Assembly (NCBI GenBank): GCA_001799275.1
Contig: MGTE01000045.1
Coordinates: 549-45,445, forward strand
Direction of reading: 5' to 3'
DNA: 44,897 nucleotides
DNA from: Deltaproteobacteria bacterium RIFOXYD12_FULL_57_12
GTDB taxonomy: Bacteria > Desulfobacterota > Desulfobulbia > Desulfobulbales > BM004
The notes under the pieces were generated by a model, which saw nothing but the letters and a program-made list of their open reading frames with translations, was not told where the DNA came from and did no database searches. The stretch's first letter is position 1, and each line of letters opens with the position of its first letter. The position numbers and the translations under genes were made by a program. Positions 22,108 through 28,728 of this stretch are shown here, one piece after another.

Positions 22108-22956
22108 TCACATCTGGTAGTGGCTAATCAGAACAGGGCACGGGGCAAAACCGATCACCCTTTCGGTAACGCTGCCCATGAGCAATCTGGTCAGGCCTTT
22201 TCTGCCATGCGACCCCAGGATAATCAGGGTCGCGCCGATTTCAGCGGCTAATTCGGTGATCGCTACATGGGGCTCACCTTCCTTGACCACCGTCCGCGTT
22301 GTGATGCCTGACACGTCTGCTCTGACCTTGATTTCTTCGAGCAGGGCATGAGCTTTGCCGGTGAGTTCGTTCACCGCCGCAGGCGCCTGGGCAGAAAATT
22401 CATCGTTGACATCGACGACAGAGATCAAATTCAGTTTCGCCGAGTGTTGCCGGGCAAGCTCCAGAGCTCGTTCGACAGCGGCGGAGCTGTATTTCGAACC
22501 ATCGGTGGCCAGCAGGATTTCTCCCCAGGCAAAGTGCGTGTTTTCCGGCACCACCAGGACATCCTTGCTGGTATGGCCGATAACCCTCGCCGTGACGCCG
22601 CCCATCAGTTCCCGTTCCAGTCGGGAGTGGCCTCTGCGGCCCATGACGATGAGGTCACAATTTTCCTCGGCCGCCACCTGAACAATCCGCTCATACGGTT
22701 CACCCTGTTCGAGATCGGTGAGGATGTTCATTTTTTCGGCCTGGGCGATCTCCTTGGCCTCGGCCAGCAGTTTCTGGCCGGGACCAAGGATCACTTCCTT
22801 AATATTACTGATCCCGGTCAGATCAAGATCACCCATGTAGTCCGGGATTACGGCGACAACTTTTATCCAATTTGCCAGGGTGAATGCCTGTCTGAGCGCA
22901 TTGCGGCTGGAAGGCGATCCGTCGTAGGCAACAAGAATCTTTCTGTAATTATCCAT
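22108..22956 (-). CDS. tandem universal stress protein
   Basis: A 282-residue protein with two Usp domains. Domain 1 (about 1-140) begins KILVAYDGSPSS and carries MGRRGHSRLERELMGG. Domain 2 (about 145-282) begins ILLATDGSKYSS and carries the full ATP-binding motif LGSHGRKGLTRLLMGS (G-2x-G-9x-G-S). Domain 1 has G in place of the last S/T, so ATP binding may differ. Usp proteins respond to starvation and redox stress, usually as dimers; tandem forms act as internal dimers. It is the last gene of the sigma-54 operon and overlaps the exporter gene by 8 bp, so translation is coupled. Confidence 0.9.
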   Translation of the reverse strand: MDNYRKILVAYDGSPSSRNALRQAFTLANWIKVVAVIPDYMGDLDLTGISNIKEVILGPGQKLLAEAKEIAQAEKMNILTDLEQGEPYERIVQVAAEENCDLIVMGRRGHSRLERELMGGVTARVIGHTSKDVLVVPENTHFAWGEILLATDGSKYSSAAVERALELARQHSAKLNLISVVDVNDEFSAQAPAAVNELTGKAHALLEEIKVRADVSGITTRTVVKEGEPHVAITELAAEIGATLIILGSHGRKGLTRLLMGSVTERVIGFAPCPVLISHYQM

Positions 22957-24298
22957 TGGTTACCACATGTGCTAACTGTTGTGCTTCGCGTTCGTGTTTT
23001 GCCTGTAGCATGCCTTTCGTCATGGCAATGGTAATGATCAGGGCGGCGGAGCCCAGGGCCGTGACCAGCGCCCAGAAGCTTATCTGTTCAAGAGCAGCTG
23101 TGGTCTGGCTTTGGAGAACCGGAATCAGGTCGAGATCGGCCAGATAGCCCGGAACCTTGGCACCGCGGCTGACGGCAACAATCAGCATGGTGGAGGCCAT
23201 GACGATTTTGATCATATAATCCTTGACATAGGTGGTGCCCAAGGCGCCCAACTGCACACCGATCAGGGAGCCGGCGAGGATAAGCAGGGTCAGCCTGATG
23301 TCGATAAGGCCGCTTAACCCCCACTGGATGGAGCCCCACGCCCCCATGACGAAAGCAATGATCAATTCGGTGGCCGAGGCCACGACCGCCGAGGCACCCA
23401 CAACGTAAATCATACCGGGAACACCGATAAAACCGCCCACCGCAATGGTGGCCGCCAGCATCCCGGTCAGAAGACCGACCGGGATGGTGACCCAGGCGGA
23501 GATCGTGACCTTGGCGACCTTGAAGTGCATCATCGGCGGAAGATTGATTGCCTGCAGACGGAGGGCCAGCTTGGACACCGTGGCTTCACCCTTGCCCTTG
23601 GCCAGTTTATAGGCATCATATAACACATACCCACCGACCAGCACCAGCACAACCATGAAGACAAAGCTTACGTAAAGGTTGGAACCGGCATTTCCAAAGT
23701 GGTTGAGGATATATTTCTGCATCTTGATGCCGATCTGCACGCCGATGATGGCGGTCGCTGCCATGACCAGGCCGAGTTTGATGTCTGCCTGGCCGTATTT
23801 GTAACGCTTATAGGCTCCGACCATGGCCTTCGGGAACTTGTGGCACATATTGCTGGCCACGGCCACGGCACCGGGAACACCCAGGGACATCATGGCCGGC
23901 GTCAGCACAAAGGCGCCGCCCGAGCCGATAAAACCGCTCAACAGCCCGCCGATCAGCCCCACCACCAGCAGGGTGATAATCCTGGTAAGGGTCATATCCA
24001 TGAACATGATCGAGATGTCCTTGATCACCCCTTCGCCGGCATGCTTGTCAAGGCTCACAAGGACCTTTTTGTTCAATCTGACGTCCTCGGCCTTCATTGC
24101 CGCAGGCAGGATCAGGGTAACGATTTCCTTGGTGCCATCCTTTTCAAAGGTGATGGAATGGGCCTCCGGTTGCACCTGGGTAATGATGCCTTTCAGCATA
24201 TCCTTGGGCGGCCCGTCGCCGCCGCCGGCTAAGGCCGCAGAGGCTAGAGGCAGGGAGATGAGCGTGAGCAGCAGCATAAACAGTAATTTGCGATACAT
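22949..24298 (-). CDS. TauE/SafE-family anion exporter with N-terminal periplasmic domain
   Basis: A 449-residue membrane protein. A signal-like helix (about 4-24, ending SAALAGG) is followed by a soluble segment of about 75 residues (GIITQVQPEAHSITF to GVIKDI) that looks like a small beta-barrel. TauE/SafE transport repeats then run from about 108 to 445, with GLLSGFIGSGGAFVLTPAM as the first repeat and GMLAATIAVGGFIGVPG as the second. Relatives export sulfite, sulfoacetate or other sulfur anions; the substrate is inferred, but it suits a sulfur-metabolising host. ATG at 24298 is preferred to an upstream TTG because AAGGAG lies 10 bp before it. Confidence 0.87.
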   Translation of the reverse strand: MYRKLLFMLLLTLISLPLASAALAGGGDGPPKDMLKGIITQVQPEAHSITFEKDGTKEIVTLILPAAMKAEDVRLNKKVLVSLDKHAGEGVIKDISIMFMDMTLTRIITLLVVGLIGGLLSGFIGSGGAFVLTPAMMSLGVPGAVAVASNMCHKFPKAMVGAYKRYKYGQADIKLGLVMAATAIIGVQIGIKMQKYILNHFGNAGSNLYVSFVFMVVLVLVGGYVLYDAYKLAKGKGEATVSKLALRLQAINLPPMMHFKVAKVTISAWVTIPVGLLTGMLAATIAVGGFIGVPGMIYVVGASAVVASATELIIAFVMGAWGSIQWGLSGLIDIRLTLLILAGSLIGVQLGALGTTYVKDYMIKIVMASTMLIVAVSRGAKVPGYLADLDLIPVLQSQTTAALEQISFWALVTALGSAALIITIAMTKGMLQAKHEREAQQLAHVVTNG

Positions 24299-24383: not shown

Positions 24384-24746
24384 TCATTTTTTGGCTTCAA
24401 GGCCCAGCACATTCAACAGGTTGCTGGCAAAGGCGCCATGGATGAAAGAAAAAAGAAAAGCGCCGCCAACCGGCAAAACCGTATACCAGCCACCCATGGT
24501 AAAGGTGTTTGTCACCAGTTGTTCGTTCGAGAAAAGGATGACATAAAGGGAGATTGAGACCAGGCCGAATCCGATGGCCGGCAGATACGGTTTCTTCTTC
24601 CGGAGCGGCGCGGCGCCTCTTGCCGGTTGCGAAGCATTTCCCCGCTGTGCAGTTTCATTGTGTAACATTCCCCTTGCGGTTTCAAATTCGCCAGCTTCGG
24701 CAAAAGCCACCGCCGACATGTTTTTGTCAAAATTCGATACGTTCAT
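24384..24746 (-). CDS. two-helix membrane protein with N-terminal FAE motif
   Basis: A 120-residue protein of unknown function. Residues 6-24 (FDKNMSAVAFAEAGEFETA) share a motif with the next two upstream genes. A basic linker (RKKKPYLP) leads to two hydrophobic helices (about 56-74 and 84-108). The start is the ATG at 24746, after GGGAG; the frame is open further upstream. It lies between a Usp-like gene and the TauE/SafE exporter in the sigma-54 operon, so a role as small partner of the exporter is plausible but unproven. Confidence 0.75.
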   Translation of the reverse strand: MNVSNFDKNMSAVAFAEAGEFETARGMLHNETAQRGNASQPARGAAPLRKKKPYLPAIGFGLVSISLYVILFSNEQLVTNTFTMGGWYTVLPVGGAFLFSFIHGAFASNLLNVLGLEAKK

Positions 24747-24780
24747 GGTTCGCTGTTTCTCCCTCTGTAATTGGTTGATA

Positions 24781-25326
24781 TTATAGTGAGTACGCCTCAA
24801 CTGCGTCTTCGTAGACCACGATCGGACAGTGCAGCCTCTTAAAGATATCGATCGTGACGCGGCTGTCTTTTATTTGCCTGCCGACCTTACTCTTACCCCG
24901 GGTGCCGAGTACAACGAGTAGAATGTCCCGGCGCTTGGCAACGTGGGCGACAAGCTCCTTCTCCAGCGTGTCGTTGGACATTATCGGATTGTAAACAACG
25001 CCCATCCGTTGGAGCGCAATCTGTTGATTCCCGGCTGATCTGCTCGTGGCGCGGGCAGCCTCGGCCGACACAGAACTATCTTCCTCATTCTTTTTCACAA
25101 GATGGAAGATTTCCAGGCCAGCCTCCACGCGCTGGCAGAGCTTGATCGCATACCCGATGATTTTCAGATCAATCTCTTGTTCGTCAATGCCCAGCAGCAC
25201 CCTTTTCCGGGATTTTTCCCCATGCTGCAGGATCTGCCTGGCCATGTCAAATTCGCCTTCTTCAGCGAATGCGGCGGAGGTCATCGCCTCCTCAAATTTC
25301 TTTAATAATTCTGGCAGGTTAATCAT
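24781..25326 (-). CDS. Usp-like protein with N-terminal FAE motif
   Basis: A 181-residue protein. Residues about 11-31 (FEEAMTSAAFAEEGEFDMA) match the motif of the neighbouring gene products. A Usp-like domain then begins at KRVLLGIDEQ (about 41) and ends with IFKRLHCPIVVYEDA. The glycine motif is altered (LGTRGKSKVGRQIKDS, with D where the third glycine is expected), so nucleotide binding may be lost. It probably senses stress or pairs with the tandem Usp encoded at the end of the operon; this is inference. It lies 17 bp after the 63-residue gene. No strong Shine-Dalgarno sequence precedes its ATG. Confidence 0.82.
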   Translation of the reverse strand: MINLPELLKKFEEAMTSAAFAEEGEFDMARQILQHGEKSRKRVLLGIDEQEIDLKIIGYAIKLCQRVEAGLEIFHLVKKNEEDSSVSAEAARATSRSAGNQQIALQRMGVVYNPIMSNDTLEKELVAHVAKRRDILLVVLGTRGKSKVGRQIKDSRVTIDIFKRLHCPIVVYEDAVEAYSL

Positions 25327-25343
25327 TTGATTGCCCGTTTGGC

Positions 25344-25535
25344 CTAGGCGTTGGCCTCGGTGGAGGCCATGCCATGGGACAGTGTGTTTGTGGTATCCTT
25401 CTTGTCCAGCAAGGGTCGACCGGAACAGCCTGCTGTGCTTAGCGGCCCGAACTCCGGAACCGTGCCAGCTGCATTTGCTTCCGCAAAGGTGACGGTGACC
25501 ATCAGCTTGTCGAAAAAGGAAAGATTGGTTTTCAT
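25344..25535 (-). CDS. 63-residue protein with N-terminal FAE motif, first gene of the sigma-54 operon
   Basis: A small protein of unknown function. The start ATG at 25535 follows AGGAG at 8 bp. The N-terminus (FFDKLMVTVTFAEA, residues 7-20) shares the F-[DE]-[KE]-x-M...FAE motif with the products of the next two genes. The rest is polar and low-complexity (SGRPLLDKKDTTNTLSHG), with one cysteine. There are no membrane helices. The leader from the predicted sigma-54 start is about 60 nt. Confidence 0.7.
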   Translation of the reverse strand: MKTNLSFFDKLMVTVTFAEANAAGTVPEFGPLSTAGCSGRPLLDKKDTTNTLSHGMASTEANA

Positions 25536-25607: not shown

Positions 25608-25623
25608 TGCAGGGGGCGTGCCA
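25608..25623 (-). promoter_or_regulatory. sigma-54 promoter of the Usp/TauE operon
   Basis: On the minus strand TGGCAC-GCCCC-CTGCA has the invariant GG at -24 and GC at -12 with exactly ten bases between, close to the consensus TGGCAC-N5-TTGCW. Transcription would start near 25597 and first reach the 63-residue gene. The adjacent divergent genes encode a histidine kinase and a sigma-54 activator, so the context fits. Confidence 0.8.
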
Positions 25624-25907: not shown

Positions 25908-27374
25908 ATGAGGTTTTTCAAAAGCGAATTAAGTATCAGGCGGAAAATCACTTTCAGTTTCTATCTGCTGCTCATCGTCATTATGGGTACGGCTCTCGTC
26001 ACCTATGGCATTGTGTGGCGGGTGGAGCAGAAAGTCGAACAGGTCGGGCTGATTGACGATTTTTTCAACCTCACCCTCGAACTACGGCGGTTTGAGAAGA
26101 ATTTTTTTCTCTACGAGCAGAAAAAGGATTATGACGAAAACATCGATTACGGCGAAAAGCTCAAAGAGATGCTGCAGCAGAACAAGGAAACATTCTGTTC
26201 TCTGGCGCCGGTCGAAGAGGTGGAACACGCCCAGGAAATCCTGGATCATTACAGCCAGTACATGCGCAAGCTCGATCCCTTTAACAAAGGAGAGGGGGGG
26301 GAGAAGAATAACTGGCGGGAGTGGCACACCCTGCTGGATTTCATCCGCGCAAATGGCAAGGATCTCACCTCGTTCGCCGAAAAAACAGCCCGGGTGCAAA
26401 AAAAATATATTAATGCCCTGTTGCGCACCACGCGGCAGGTTCTTGTCTTTTCCCTGTGCGCCTTGTTTGTGCTCTCAATCACCATGGCCAGATTCCTGGC
26501 CAGTCGGGTAGTGCTGTCGCTCAAGCAGCTCGAGAATTATACCTGGAGACTTTCGCATGGCCAGTTGCTCGACATTCCCATCGAGGACGCCGAAAAAGAA
26601 ATTCTTTCTATCTATCAGGCATTTAACAGAATGACGCATCAATTGAAGATTCATCAGCAGCAATTGGTCCAGTCGGAAAAGCTGGCGGCCTTCGGCACCC
26701 TGCTGGCCGGGGTTGCCCATGAGTTGAACAATCCGCTTTCCAATATTTCCACCTCGGCGCAGATTCTGGCGGAAGAGATTGAGGGTGATGACATCGAATT
26801 CAGAAAAAATCTGGTCAGTCAGATTGATGAGCAGTCTGACAAGGCCCGCGACATTGTCCGCAGTCTGCTTGAATTTTCGCGAACCAAGGAATTTGAGAAA
26901 AAAGAGCTTGAACTAAATAAACTCATTGGGGAGACGATCAGGCTTATCCGCGGACAGGTGCCCACCAAGGTGAACATTACGGTGGAAGTGCCGGAAGATC
27001 TCACCATTGTTGCGGATAAGCAGCGAATCCAGCAGGTCTTCCTCAATCTCATAAAAAATGCGGTTGATGCTCTGGACGAAAATGGCCGGATCTGGATCTC
27101 CGCCCGCCGATCATTGTCACGGAAGGATGACCCGGAGGAGGTGGAGATCATGGTCGAAGACAATGGGCCGGGTATTGAGCCCGAAAATATCAAGCGAATT
27201 TTCGATCCATTTTTTACAACCAAAGACGTAGGAAAGGGGTCAGGGCTTGGATTGTTCGTGGTGCATGACATCATCGAGGCCCACGGGGGAACCATCCGGG
27301 TTGACAGCAACCTCGGCCAGGGAACAACCTTTACCATCTGGCTCTCCAATGATAAGGAGAAACGTCATGCGTAA
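25908..27374 (+). CDS. NtrB-type sensor histidine kinase
   Basis: A 488-residue membrane sensor. TM1 is at about 17-39. A periplasmic helical domain of about 130 residues is rich in charged residues (LRRFEKNFFLYEQKKDYDE), like the four-helix or HBM class. TM2 is at about 172-195, then a HAMP linker. The HisKA domain has His271 in GVAHELNNPLSN. The ATPase core shows NLIKNAVDAL, DNGPGI, FFTTKDVGKGSGLGL. The ATG at 25908 is chosen because the earlier open frame lacks a ribosome-binding site. The gene overlaps the response-regulator gene by 8 bp, so the pair is coupled, and it is divergent from the sigma-54 operon it probably controls. Confidence 0.93.
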   Translation: MRFFKSELSIRRKITFSFYLLLIVIMGTALVTYGIVWRVEQKVEQVGLIDDFFNLTLELRRFEKNFFLYEQKKDYDENIDYGEKLKEMLQQNKETFCSLAPVEEVEHAQEILDHYSQYMRKLDPFNKGEGGEKNNWREWHTLLDFIRANGKDLTSFAEKTARVQKKYINALLRTTRQVLVFSLCALFVLSITMARFLASRVVLSLKQLENYTWRLSHGQLLDIPIEDAEKEILSIYQAFNRMTHQLKIHQQQLVQSEKLAAFGTLLAGVAHELNNPLSNISTSAQILAEEIEGDDIEFRKNLVSQIDEQSDKARDIVRSLLEFSRTKEFEKKELELNKLIGETIRLIRGQVPTKVNITVEVPEDLTIVADKQRIQQVFLNLIKNAVDALDENGRIWISARRSLSRKDDPEEVEIMVEDNGPGIEPENIKRIFDPFFTTKDVGKGSGLGLFVVHDIIEAHGGTIRVDSNLGQGTTFTIWLSNDKEKRHA

Positions 27375-28728
27375 TATTCCGAAGATTCTGGTGGTGGATG
27401 ACGAAGCCATCGCCCTGAAAAACCTTTCTCATGTGTTAACAAAGGAAGGATATGAAGTCATTGCCGTACAGAGCGGCCCCGAGGCCTTGGAGCTGCTGGA
27501 ACAGCAGGAATTCGCCCTGGTGATCACCGATCTGAAGATGGAAAAGGTGGATGGCCTGCGCATCCTGGAGAGATCCAAGGAGCTCTACGCCGACACCGAA
27601 GTCATCATGATCACCGGCTATGCCACCGTGGATACCGCCATCCTCGCCATGAAATCCGGGGCCTACCATTATATTGCCAAGCCGTACAAGCTTGACGAGG
27701 TGCGCAAGGTCGTCAAGGAGGCGCTGGAAAAGCACAGCCTCAAAAAGGAAAACATTCAACTCAAGGAGCATCTGCAGGTCGTACGGGGCAGCAATGAAAT
27801 TATCACCGTCAACCTGAAGATGAAGAAATTACTGGAAATGGCGCGCCAGGTGGCCACAACTGACAGCAACGTGATGATCAGCGGCGAGTCCGGCACCGGC
27901 AAAGAACTTCTCGCCCGTTATCTGCACACCTGCAGCCGCCGCAAGAACGGGCCCCTGCTGTCAATGAACTGCGGAGTATTTAACGAGGAGTTGCTGGCCA
28001 ATGAACTCTTCGGCCATGAAAAGGGGGCCTACACCGGCGCCACCGAGATGAAAAAAGGCCTGGTCGAGATGGCGAACGGGGGCACGCTGTTTTTGGATGA
28101 GATCACCGAGATGTCACCTGCCATGCAGGTAAAATTTCTGCGGGTAATTCAGGAGAAAGAGGTAACGCTGGTTGGCGGCACCCAGCCGGTCAAGGTCGAT
28201 GTGCGCTTTATTGCCGCCACCAATCGCAACCTGCAGGATGAGGTGAAAGAAGGCCATTTCCGACAGGATTTATTCTTCCGGATCAACGTGGTTGCTTTAA
28301 CCATCCTGCCGCTGGCGGACCGCAAGGATGATCTTCCCCTGCTCATCCAGCATTTTATAAAGAAATTCGCCGCGGTCATGCAAAAAAACATCAAGGATGT
28401 GAGCCCGGCGTTTGCCAATATCCTGATGCGTTATGATTTCCCCGGCAACGTGCGGGAATTGGAAAATATTATTGAACGCGGCGTGGCACTCGCCACTGGC
28501 GAAACCCTGGAGGTCGATCAACTGCCGGAGGATCTGCGCGGCATGCTGTTGCAGACCTTCAGAAAACGTGACGGCCAATTTCCGTCCCTGGCCGACCAGG
28601 AGAAATCTTATATCGAATGGGTGCTTTCGGAAACCGGAGACAACAAGACACTTGCCGCCCAGATTCTGGGCATTGATCGAGTCTCCCTCTGGAGAAAACT
28701 GAAGAAGTACGACCTGGATGAAACCTGA
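27367..28728 (+). CDS. NtrC-family sigma-54-dependent response regulator
   Basis: A 453-residue three-domain activator. The receiver (about 1-120) has Asp55 in VITDLKM. The AAA+ domain shows Walker A GESGTGKE (from 173), the sigma-54 contact loop GAYTGA (220-225, Tyr in place of the more common Phe), Walker B GGTLFLDEI and the FRQDLFFRINV sensor region. The C-terminal Fis-type helix-turn-helix is AAQILGIDRVSLWRKLKK. AAGGAG precedes the ATG. With its kinase it forms a pair facing a sigma-54 promoter 1.7 kb upstream, the most likely target. Confidence 0.95.
   Translation: MRNIPKILVVDDEAIALKNLSHVLTKEGYEVIAVQSGPEALELLEQQEFALVITDLKMEKVDGLRILERSKELYADTEVIMITGYATVDTAILAMKSGAYHYIAKPYKLDEVRKVVKEALEKHSLKKENIQLKEHLQVVRGSNEIITVNLKMKKLLEMARQVATTDSNVMISGESGTGKELLARYLHTCSRRKNGPLLSMNCGVFNEELLANELFGHEKGAYTGATEMKKGLVEMANGGTLFLDEITEMSPAMQVKFLRVIQEKEVTLVGGTQPVKVDVRFIAATNRNLQDEVKEGHFRQDLFFRINVVALTILPLADRKDDLPLLIQHFIKKFAAVMQKNIKDVSPAFANILMRYDFPGNVRELENIIERGVALATGETLEVDQLPEDLRGMLLQTFRKRDGQFPSLADQEKSYIEWVLSETGDNKTLAAQILGIDRVSLWRKLKKYDLDET

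Follow-up and report, generated by a model that had tools for sequence, protein, structure and literature searches.

Three consecutive genes in a 44,897-nucleotide stretch of the genome of Deltaproteobacteria bacterium RIFOXYD12_FULL_57_12 (the window) encode proteins, here P1, P2 and P3, that share a homologous element of about 25 residues, the FAE module. It is a so far unnamed two-helix motif that occurs, in sulfate reducers and related bacteria, on many otherwise unrelated proteins linked to stress, signalling or transporters. Our best explanation, whose chances we judge to be about even, is that FAE is a single-TPR-like hairpin for protein docking in sigma-54-controlled stress and anion-transport signalling operons.

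A shared module on three different proteins

The copies (FFDKLMVTVTFAEA in P1, KFEEAMTSAAFAEEGEF in P2 and NFDKNMSAVAFAEAGEF in P3; Table 1) follow the consensus FDKxMxAxxFAEAGEHETARxML or, in a finer form, [FL][DE]KxMxA(V/A)(A/T)FAEAGE(H/F)(E/D)TARxML, so that the module extends beyond FAEAGE and includes the TARxML helix. With a motif model built without the copies of the window, P3, P2 and P1 scored 53.7, 36.8 and 19.3 bits, respectively, and all other open reading frames of the window at most 4.4 bits; among 72,000 shuffled window ORFs the top score, obtained with the full model, was 10.3 bits. The copy in P1 (contig positions 25991-26074, at an offset of 548) is the most degenerate, its second half reading NAAGTVPEFG and having lost GExxTAR, which P1 orthologues retain.

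The first-pass annotation had proposed that these three genes share a motif placed on different bodies, and both points are borne out: the motif is a homologous module, joined to a Usp domain in P2 (PF00582, 6.3e-10, 40.2 bits versus a cut-off of 24; Foldseek E 2.8e-5 against Usp structures) and to two hydrophobic stretches in P3 (residues 52-79 and 84-116). Its further statement that the motif has no named domain agrees with our finding that none of the Pfam and NCBIfam models tested describes it; a literature search for the letters FAEAGE also gave no match. In the Pfam scan P1 belonged to no family and P3 had no match above cut-off, and NCBIfam held no model for P1, P2 or P3. The description of the motif as an N-terminal tag is correct for P1, P2 and P3 but not for the family, in which the module is also found at the C-terminus, internally in Usp domains and in tandem.

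Table 1. Positions of the FAE copies and of the surrounding genes and promoter in the window
Feature	Position	Strand	Evidence
FAE copy in P1 (FFDKLMVTVTFAEA...; degenerate second helix)	25443..25526	-	motif-profile match 8.1e-10
FAE copy in P2 (KKFEEAMTSAAFAEEGEFDMARQILQ)	25222..25305	-	motif-profile match 1.2e-12
FAE copy in P3 (NFDKNMSAVAFAEAGEFETARGMLH)	24657..24740	-	motif-profile match 2.2e-15
P1, 63 aa, FAE module and variable tail	25344..25535	-	ORF
P2, 181 aa, FAE module and Usp-fold domain	24781..25326	-	PF00582
P3, 120 aa, FAE module on two-transmembrane body (FSFIHGAFASNLL)	24384..24746	-	
TauE/SafE (TSUP) family permease (P4)	22949..24298	-	PF01925 4.6e-34
Tandem Usp protein	22108..22956	-	PF00582 2e-61
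Sigma-54 type -24/-12 promoter TGGCACGCCCCCTGCA	25608..25623	-	sequence
Divergent histidine kinase (HAMP, HisKA, HATPase_c)	25908..27374	+	start codon picked by eye
NtrC-type sigma-54 activator (receiver, AAA, HTH_8)	27367..28728	+	

P1, P2 and P3 are arranged head to tail with gaps of approximately 17 and 34 nt and are followed by the genes for the permease, whose score of 118.5 bits against a PF01925 cut-off of 32.6 places it in the TauE/SafE family, and for the tandem Usp protein, the second domain of which retains the ATP-binding motif. A -24/-12 element (TGGCACG-N4-CTGCA) precedes the start codon of P1 by about 73 nt and recurs at this position in relatives, and the adjacent activator (PF00158 6e-68, PF00072 5e-27, PF02954) contains a GAYTGA loop. 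By sequence, the window thus combines the two hallmarks of a sigma-54 regulon, i.e. a -24/-12 element and a neighbouring activator with a GAFTGA-type loop.

Distribution of the FAE module

A search profile made from 32 FAE copies (threshold E 0.01) matched 38 of 96 genomes of the order, usually with several copies each, whereas a decoy profile with the same columns shuffled matched none of the 96; the expectation that a profile would outperform a shuffled control was therefore correct. Since the seed copies came partly from these genomes, the fair subset consists of the 38 genomes never used for seeds (G058-G095), 13 of which were positive. Phylum-wide, the profile found the module in 32 of 297 genomes and in 27 of 199 genera. 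The copies are clumped: a Poisson spread would leave 11 of the 96 order genomes without any copy and 24 with a single one, whereas the actual numbers are 58 and 3; at least two copies are present in 35 of the 38 positive genomes. The single copy in one of the genomes (G016) has the appearance of a broken two-copy gene.

The segment has a low-complexity character (A, E, F), and FAE proteins show weak matches to unrelated models, as would be expected if FAE were no more than a generic terminal helix rich in Ala and Glu, its similarity between proteins being due to composition or chance. We give this explanation practically no chance, because a decoy of identical composition found nothing, because shuffled ORFs stayed at or below the maximum given above, because most genomes lack any match while the others usually have several, and because the FAEAGE..TAR register is exact across phyla. 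A chance or compositional motif is thus ruled out by the decoy profile together with the shuffles.

Carriers and positions

The profile search found ten FAE copies in three loci of the source genome. One locus is the window operon, and another encodes a small two-copy protein next to a Lon protease into which a receiver domain is inserted (RR-Lon; L091). In the third, the gene of a three-copy protein precedes those of two response regulators that have FAE at the C-terminus. Across genomes, the module occurs on proteins of 50-60 residues with almost nothing else, on Usp proteins at the N-terminus or within the domain, at the C-terminus of paired receiver proteins or response regulators, and two or three times in proteins of about 100 residues with a common C-tail. 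In one Usp protein (L100:4477-4983) it is inserted mid-domain. Orthologous operons with Usp and TauE neighbours keep the motif, and a P1-type FAE gene likewise lies upstream of P2 in many relatives.

Several of these groups have conserved ends of their own. The C-tail of two-copy proteins resembles LGLRGIRMTYGVxxxE (L093, L095, L098, L099, L106, L211, L213), tiny FAE proteins of CitMHS and RR-Lon loci end in a ..RPELRV-like tail, and P1 proteins of Desulfobulbales-type operons end in ..TAH or ..AAH (short tails at L100, L101, L104, L105, L091, L227 and L111-L130). A recurrent cassette comprises a two- or three-copy FAE protein, a divergent receiver and a canonical receiver, the latter two each with a C-terminal FAE, and adjoins SLC13 or TauE transporters and a kinase (L092, L093, L095, L098, L099, L103, L213, L214).

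The sequence of the module depends on its carrier: identity is 0.70 between P3 copies and 0.63 between P2 copies, versus 0.44 between types within one locus, which is as expected of fixed partners. The Usp domain of P2 is of an unusual kind in that the ATP-binding motif G2xG9xG(S/T) is present in 0 of 33 members of the P2 family.

The body of P3 (..TMGGWYxxxPVGxAFLFSFIHGAFASNLLxxLGLEAKK) represents an undescribed small membrane protein beside TauE (window; L111-L180). With or without FAE, it adjoins TauE in Desulfobacterota, Nitrospirota, Bacillota and other groups, among them SAR324 and Magnetococcales MAGs. Another FAE gene was present in the locus of 30 of 31 P3 proteins with the module, compared to 10 of 39 without it (Fisher 6e-10, kinship ignored), and FAE-less P3 loci led to nine genomes of named organisms, all of them devoid of FAE genome-wide. 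FAE-less P3 orthologues adjoin TauE equally well, which indicates that TauE itself has no need of FAE. In several Nitrospirota and other operons P2 has the module and P3 lacks it; membrane anchoring through P3 is thus optional.

Predicted fold and similarity to TPR and FimV domains

AlphaFold modelled a two-copy protein (L173) with one helix-turn-helix per copy and the turn at AGE (mean pLDDT 83, pTM 0.47). For P2, residues 4-22 and 26-33 were predicted to form a hairpin ahead of the Usp domain, with a pLDDT of 55-72 in this region. Foldseek matches of the two-copy model in the PDB were mostly TPR or PPR proteins, none of them significant (best E 0.41). Run against a hand-compiled set of TPR consensus sequences, hhalign placed the G and A of FAE at TPR positions 15 and 20 with a probability of 11%, compared to 0.2% for the decoy. 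The TPR models of Pfam stayed below cut-off (TPR_6 with E 0.012 and 0.064; TPR_4 in 2 of 32 members, best E 0.085), as did the NCBIfam model FimV_Cterm (TIGR03504), which scored 13.5-15.9 bits in three FAE proteins (cut-off 30.65) and matched 1 of 32 module members with E 0.034. These weak, sub-threshold matches suggest that FAE is TPR-like, yet a member of neither family by their own tests. PDB sequence searches gave a chance-level match with the motif profile, namely to ParD-like antitoxins at a helix that starts with EAGEYATA (E 0.6), and no match with two-copy FAE proteins.

Taken as modelled, the module would be a helix-turn-helix hairpin resembling a single TPR, with G and A at TPR positions 15 and 20. 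In contrast to TPR proteins, it comes as a single unit with 25 instead of 34 conserved residues, and its invariant FAE lies outside the TPR consensus. With the C-terminal domain of FimV/HubP it shares the form of a small acidic helical hairpin, the (A/Y/F)xxxGxxxxA spacing and its occurrence on signalling proteins, the FimV/HubP domain being found on signalling scaffolds. However, FimV is a LysM/TM polar landmark protein with a single copy at its C-terminus, whereas FAE is carried by Usp, receiver and micro-proteins and a two-TM protein of Desulfobacterota and Nitrospirota, many of these carriers being small and cytosolic. The small TPR-type domain of FimV/HubP docks a GGDEF domain through its acidic face with a KD of about 200 nM (PMC9061725), and docking of signalling domains by the FimV/HubP C-terminal domain has been described (PMC9061725, PMC12918733).

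Genomic context, promoters and alternative roles

We read 40 further FAE clusters, which were chosen for carrying the motif; the following are raw context counts. Two-component genes (a histidine kinase, NtrC-type activator, receiver or RR-Lon) were located within 5 kb in all 40 clusters, and a TauE, SLC13 or CitMHS transporter or the P3 body in 25; no transporter of the families looked for was found in the other 15. A sigma-54 -24/-12 element, called at 10 or more of 12 matching positions upstream of the first FAE gene, was present in 53 of 82 FAE gene runs (window included), compared to 0.2% of shuffled upstream regions, and typically lies 90-130 nt before the FAE motif. Judged by these elements, most FAE genes appear to be placed behind one stress-responsive type of promoter.

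The constant presence of two-component genes could mean that FAE docks to one common partner, such as a histidine kinase, the sigma-54 activator or the transporter, with the carriers competing for a single site, and FAE is acidic like the FimV/HubP domain that docks GGDEF through its acidic face (PMC9061725). However, no neighbouring family is present at all clusters (histidine kinase in 30 of 40, NtrC in 28, TauE in 15), and fixed mutual partners would account at least equally well for the tandem copies and the type-specific sequences. We consider a single common partner unlikely, at perhaps one chance in a few.

A still less probable alternative is that FAE is a degron or adaptor handle for a protease, notably RR-Lon, which once phosphorylated would destroy the tagged proteins at the end of stress. 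RR-Lon is a Lon protease (Lon_C, AAA, Lon_lid) with a receiver domain (PF00072) between the N-terminal linker and AAA, as seen at L091:109-2133 (source genome, contig C39), L100, L141, L156 and L221. A tag placed at one or the other end of a small regulatory protein is reminiscent of a degron, and in 13 of 14 genomes having both, including the source genome (L091), RR-Lon lies within about 5 kb of an FAE gene. In addition, RR-Lon DVU3303 of D. vulgaris shares fitness patterns with its histidine kinase and EBP (PMC10102598). However, 24 of the 38 FAE genomes of the order sample have no match to a full-length RR-Lon, which was found in 32 of the 96 genomes, a further copy being truncated by a contig end, and FAE is absent in 19 of the 33 RR-Lon genomes (Fisher p 0.83); RR-Lon is thus no general reason for FAE. 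Several genomes of named organisms have RR-Lon beside TauE without FAE, and the conserved FAE residues look like packing residues of a hairpin, with type-specific sequences being kept, which is at odds with a degron. RR-Lon may still act on FAE proteins in one branch.

Docking as the putative function

We infer docking, our preferred reading, from a hairpin that is small, attached at either end of proteins or inside their domains, present in sets and kept in type-specific versions, and FAE is probably a plug that unites its carrier proteins. Set-wise co-occurrence is, however, also expected from operon inheritance and duplication. Judging from TPR units in general, a single hairpin of about 25 residues is unlikely to fold by itself. 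An isolated hairpin would be stable only when packed on another hairpin or a partner, and the FAE proteins of one cell therefore probably co-assemble, in a manner that might resemble the repeats of a split TPR scaffold.

Under this docking model, stress would cause the EBP to turn the operon on, upon which P1 and P2 (and UspT) would accumulate. FAE copies might then pack against each other or against a shared partner, P3 tying them to the TauE neighbourhood, and such contacts, including those of membrane-anchored P3 where present, would gather Usp and receiver proteins at the transporter and thereby tune its activity. More tentatively, and with a probability clearly short of even, the system might be an undescribed scaffold of single-repeat subunits, in which each of many small sigma-54-induced proteins contributes a TPR-like hairpin and the resulting hetero-assembly joins receivers, Usp proteins that do not bind nucleotides and transporter-bound membrane proteins in a single stress signalling complex in Desulfobacterota and Nitrospirota.

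The first-pass annotation had suggested a docking helix that brings stress proteins to the membrane exporter. An interaction module is still the best reading, with a hairpin in place of a single helix; because many FAE loci lack TauE, recruitment to the exporter can be one case at most.

Known systems similar to the operon

A recurrence of the gene order of D. vulgaris DVU3298-3305 was seen at one FAE locus (L221), which consists of CitMHS, an FAE-Usp-like gene, an FAE micro-protein and, divergently, RR-Lon, a histidine kinase and NtrC. DVU3298-3305 was described as a 'three-component system' of RR-Lon, histidine kinase and sigma-54 response regulator with Usp and an anion transporter as targets (PMC3333781, PMC4641369, PMC10102598). 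It is under sigma-54 control and induced by high pH, heat shock and in stationary phase, and the anion transporter, DVU3299, is required in the presence of chlorate (PMC3333781, PMC10102598, PMC4641369); RR-Lon DVU3303 has fitness patterns in common with the kinase and the EBP of the system (PMC10102598). From gene order we infer that DVU3298-3305 probably contains the module as well, and a shared module goes unmentioned in the papers on the D. vulgaris system.

TeaD, the Usp regulator of the TRAP transporter TeaABC, is another example of a Usp beside a secondary transporter, and P2 matches its structure (3hgm) with E 2e-4 to 9e-4. Unlike TeaD, the P2 family is devoid of the ATP-binding motif, and TeaD is not known to carry an FAE module.

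Implications

Naming the FAE module would link dozens of proteins of sulfate reducers to which no function is assigned at present (hypothetical micro-proteins, Usp proteins and orphan receivers), and would provide a searchable signature for a whole sigma-54 stress and anion-transport regulon. If the DVU3298-3302 proteins carry FAE, the binding hypothesis would be testable in D. vulgaris, for which a transposon library already gives fitness effects for a system of such layout.
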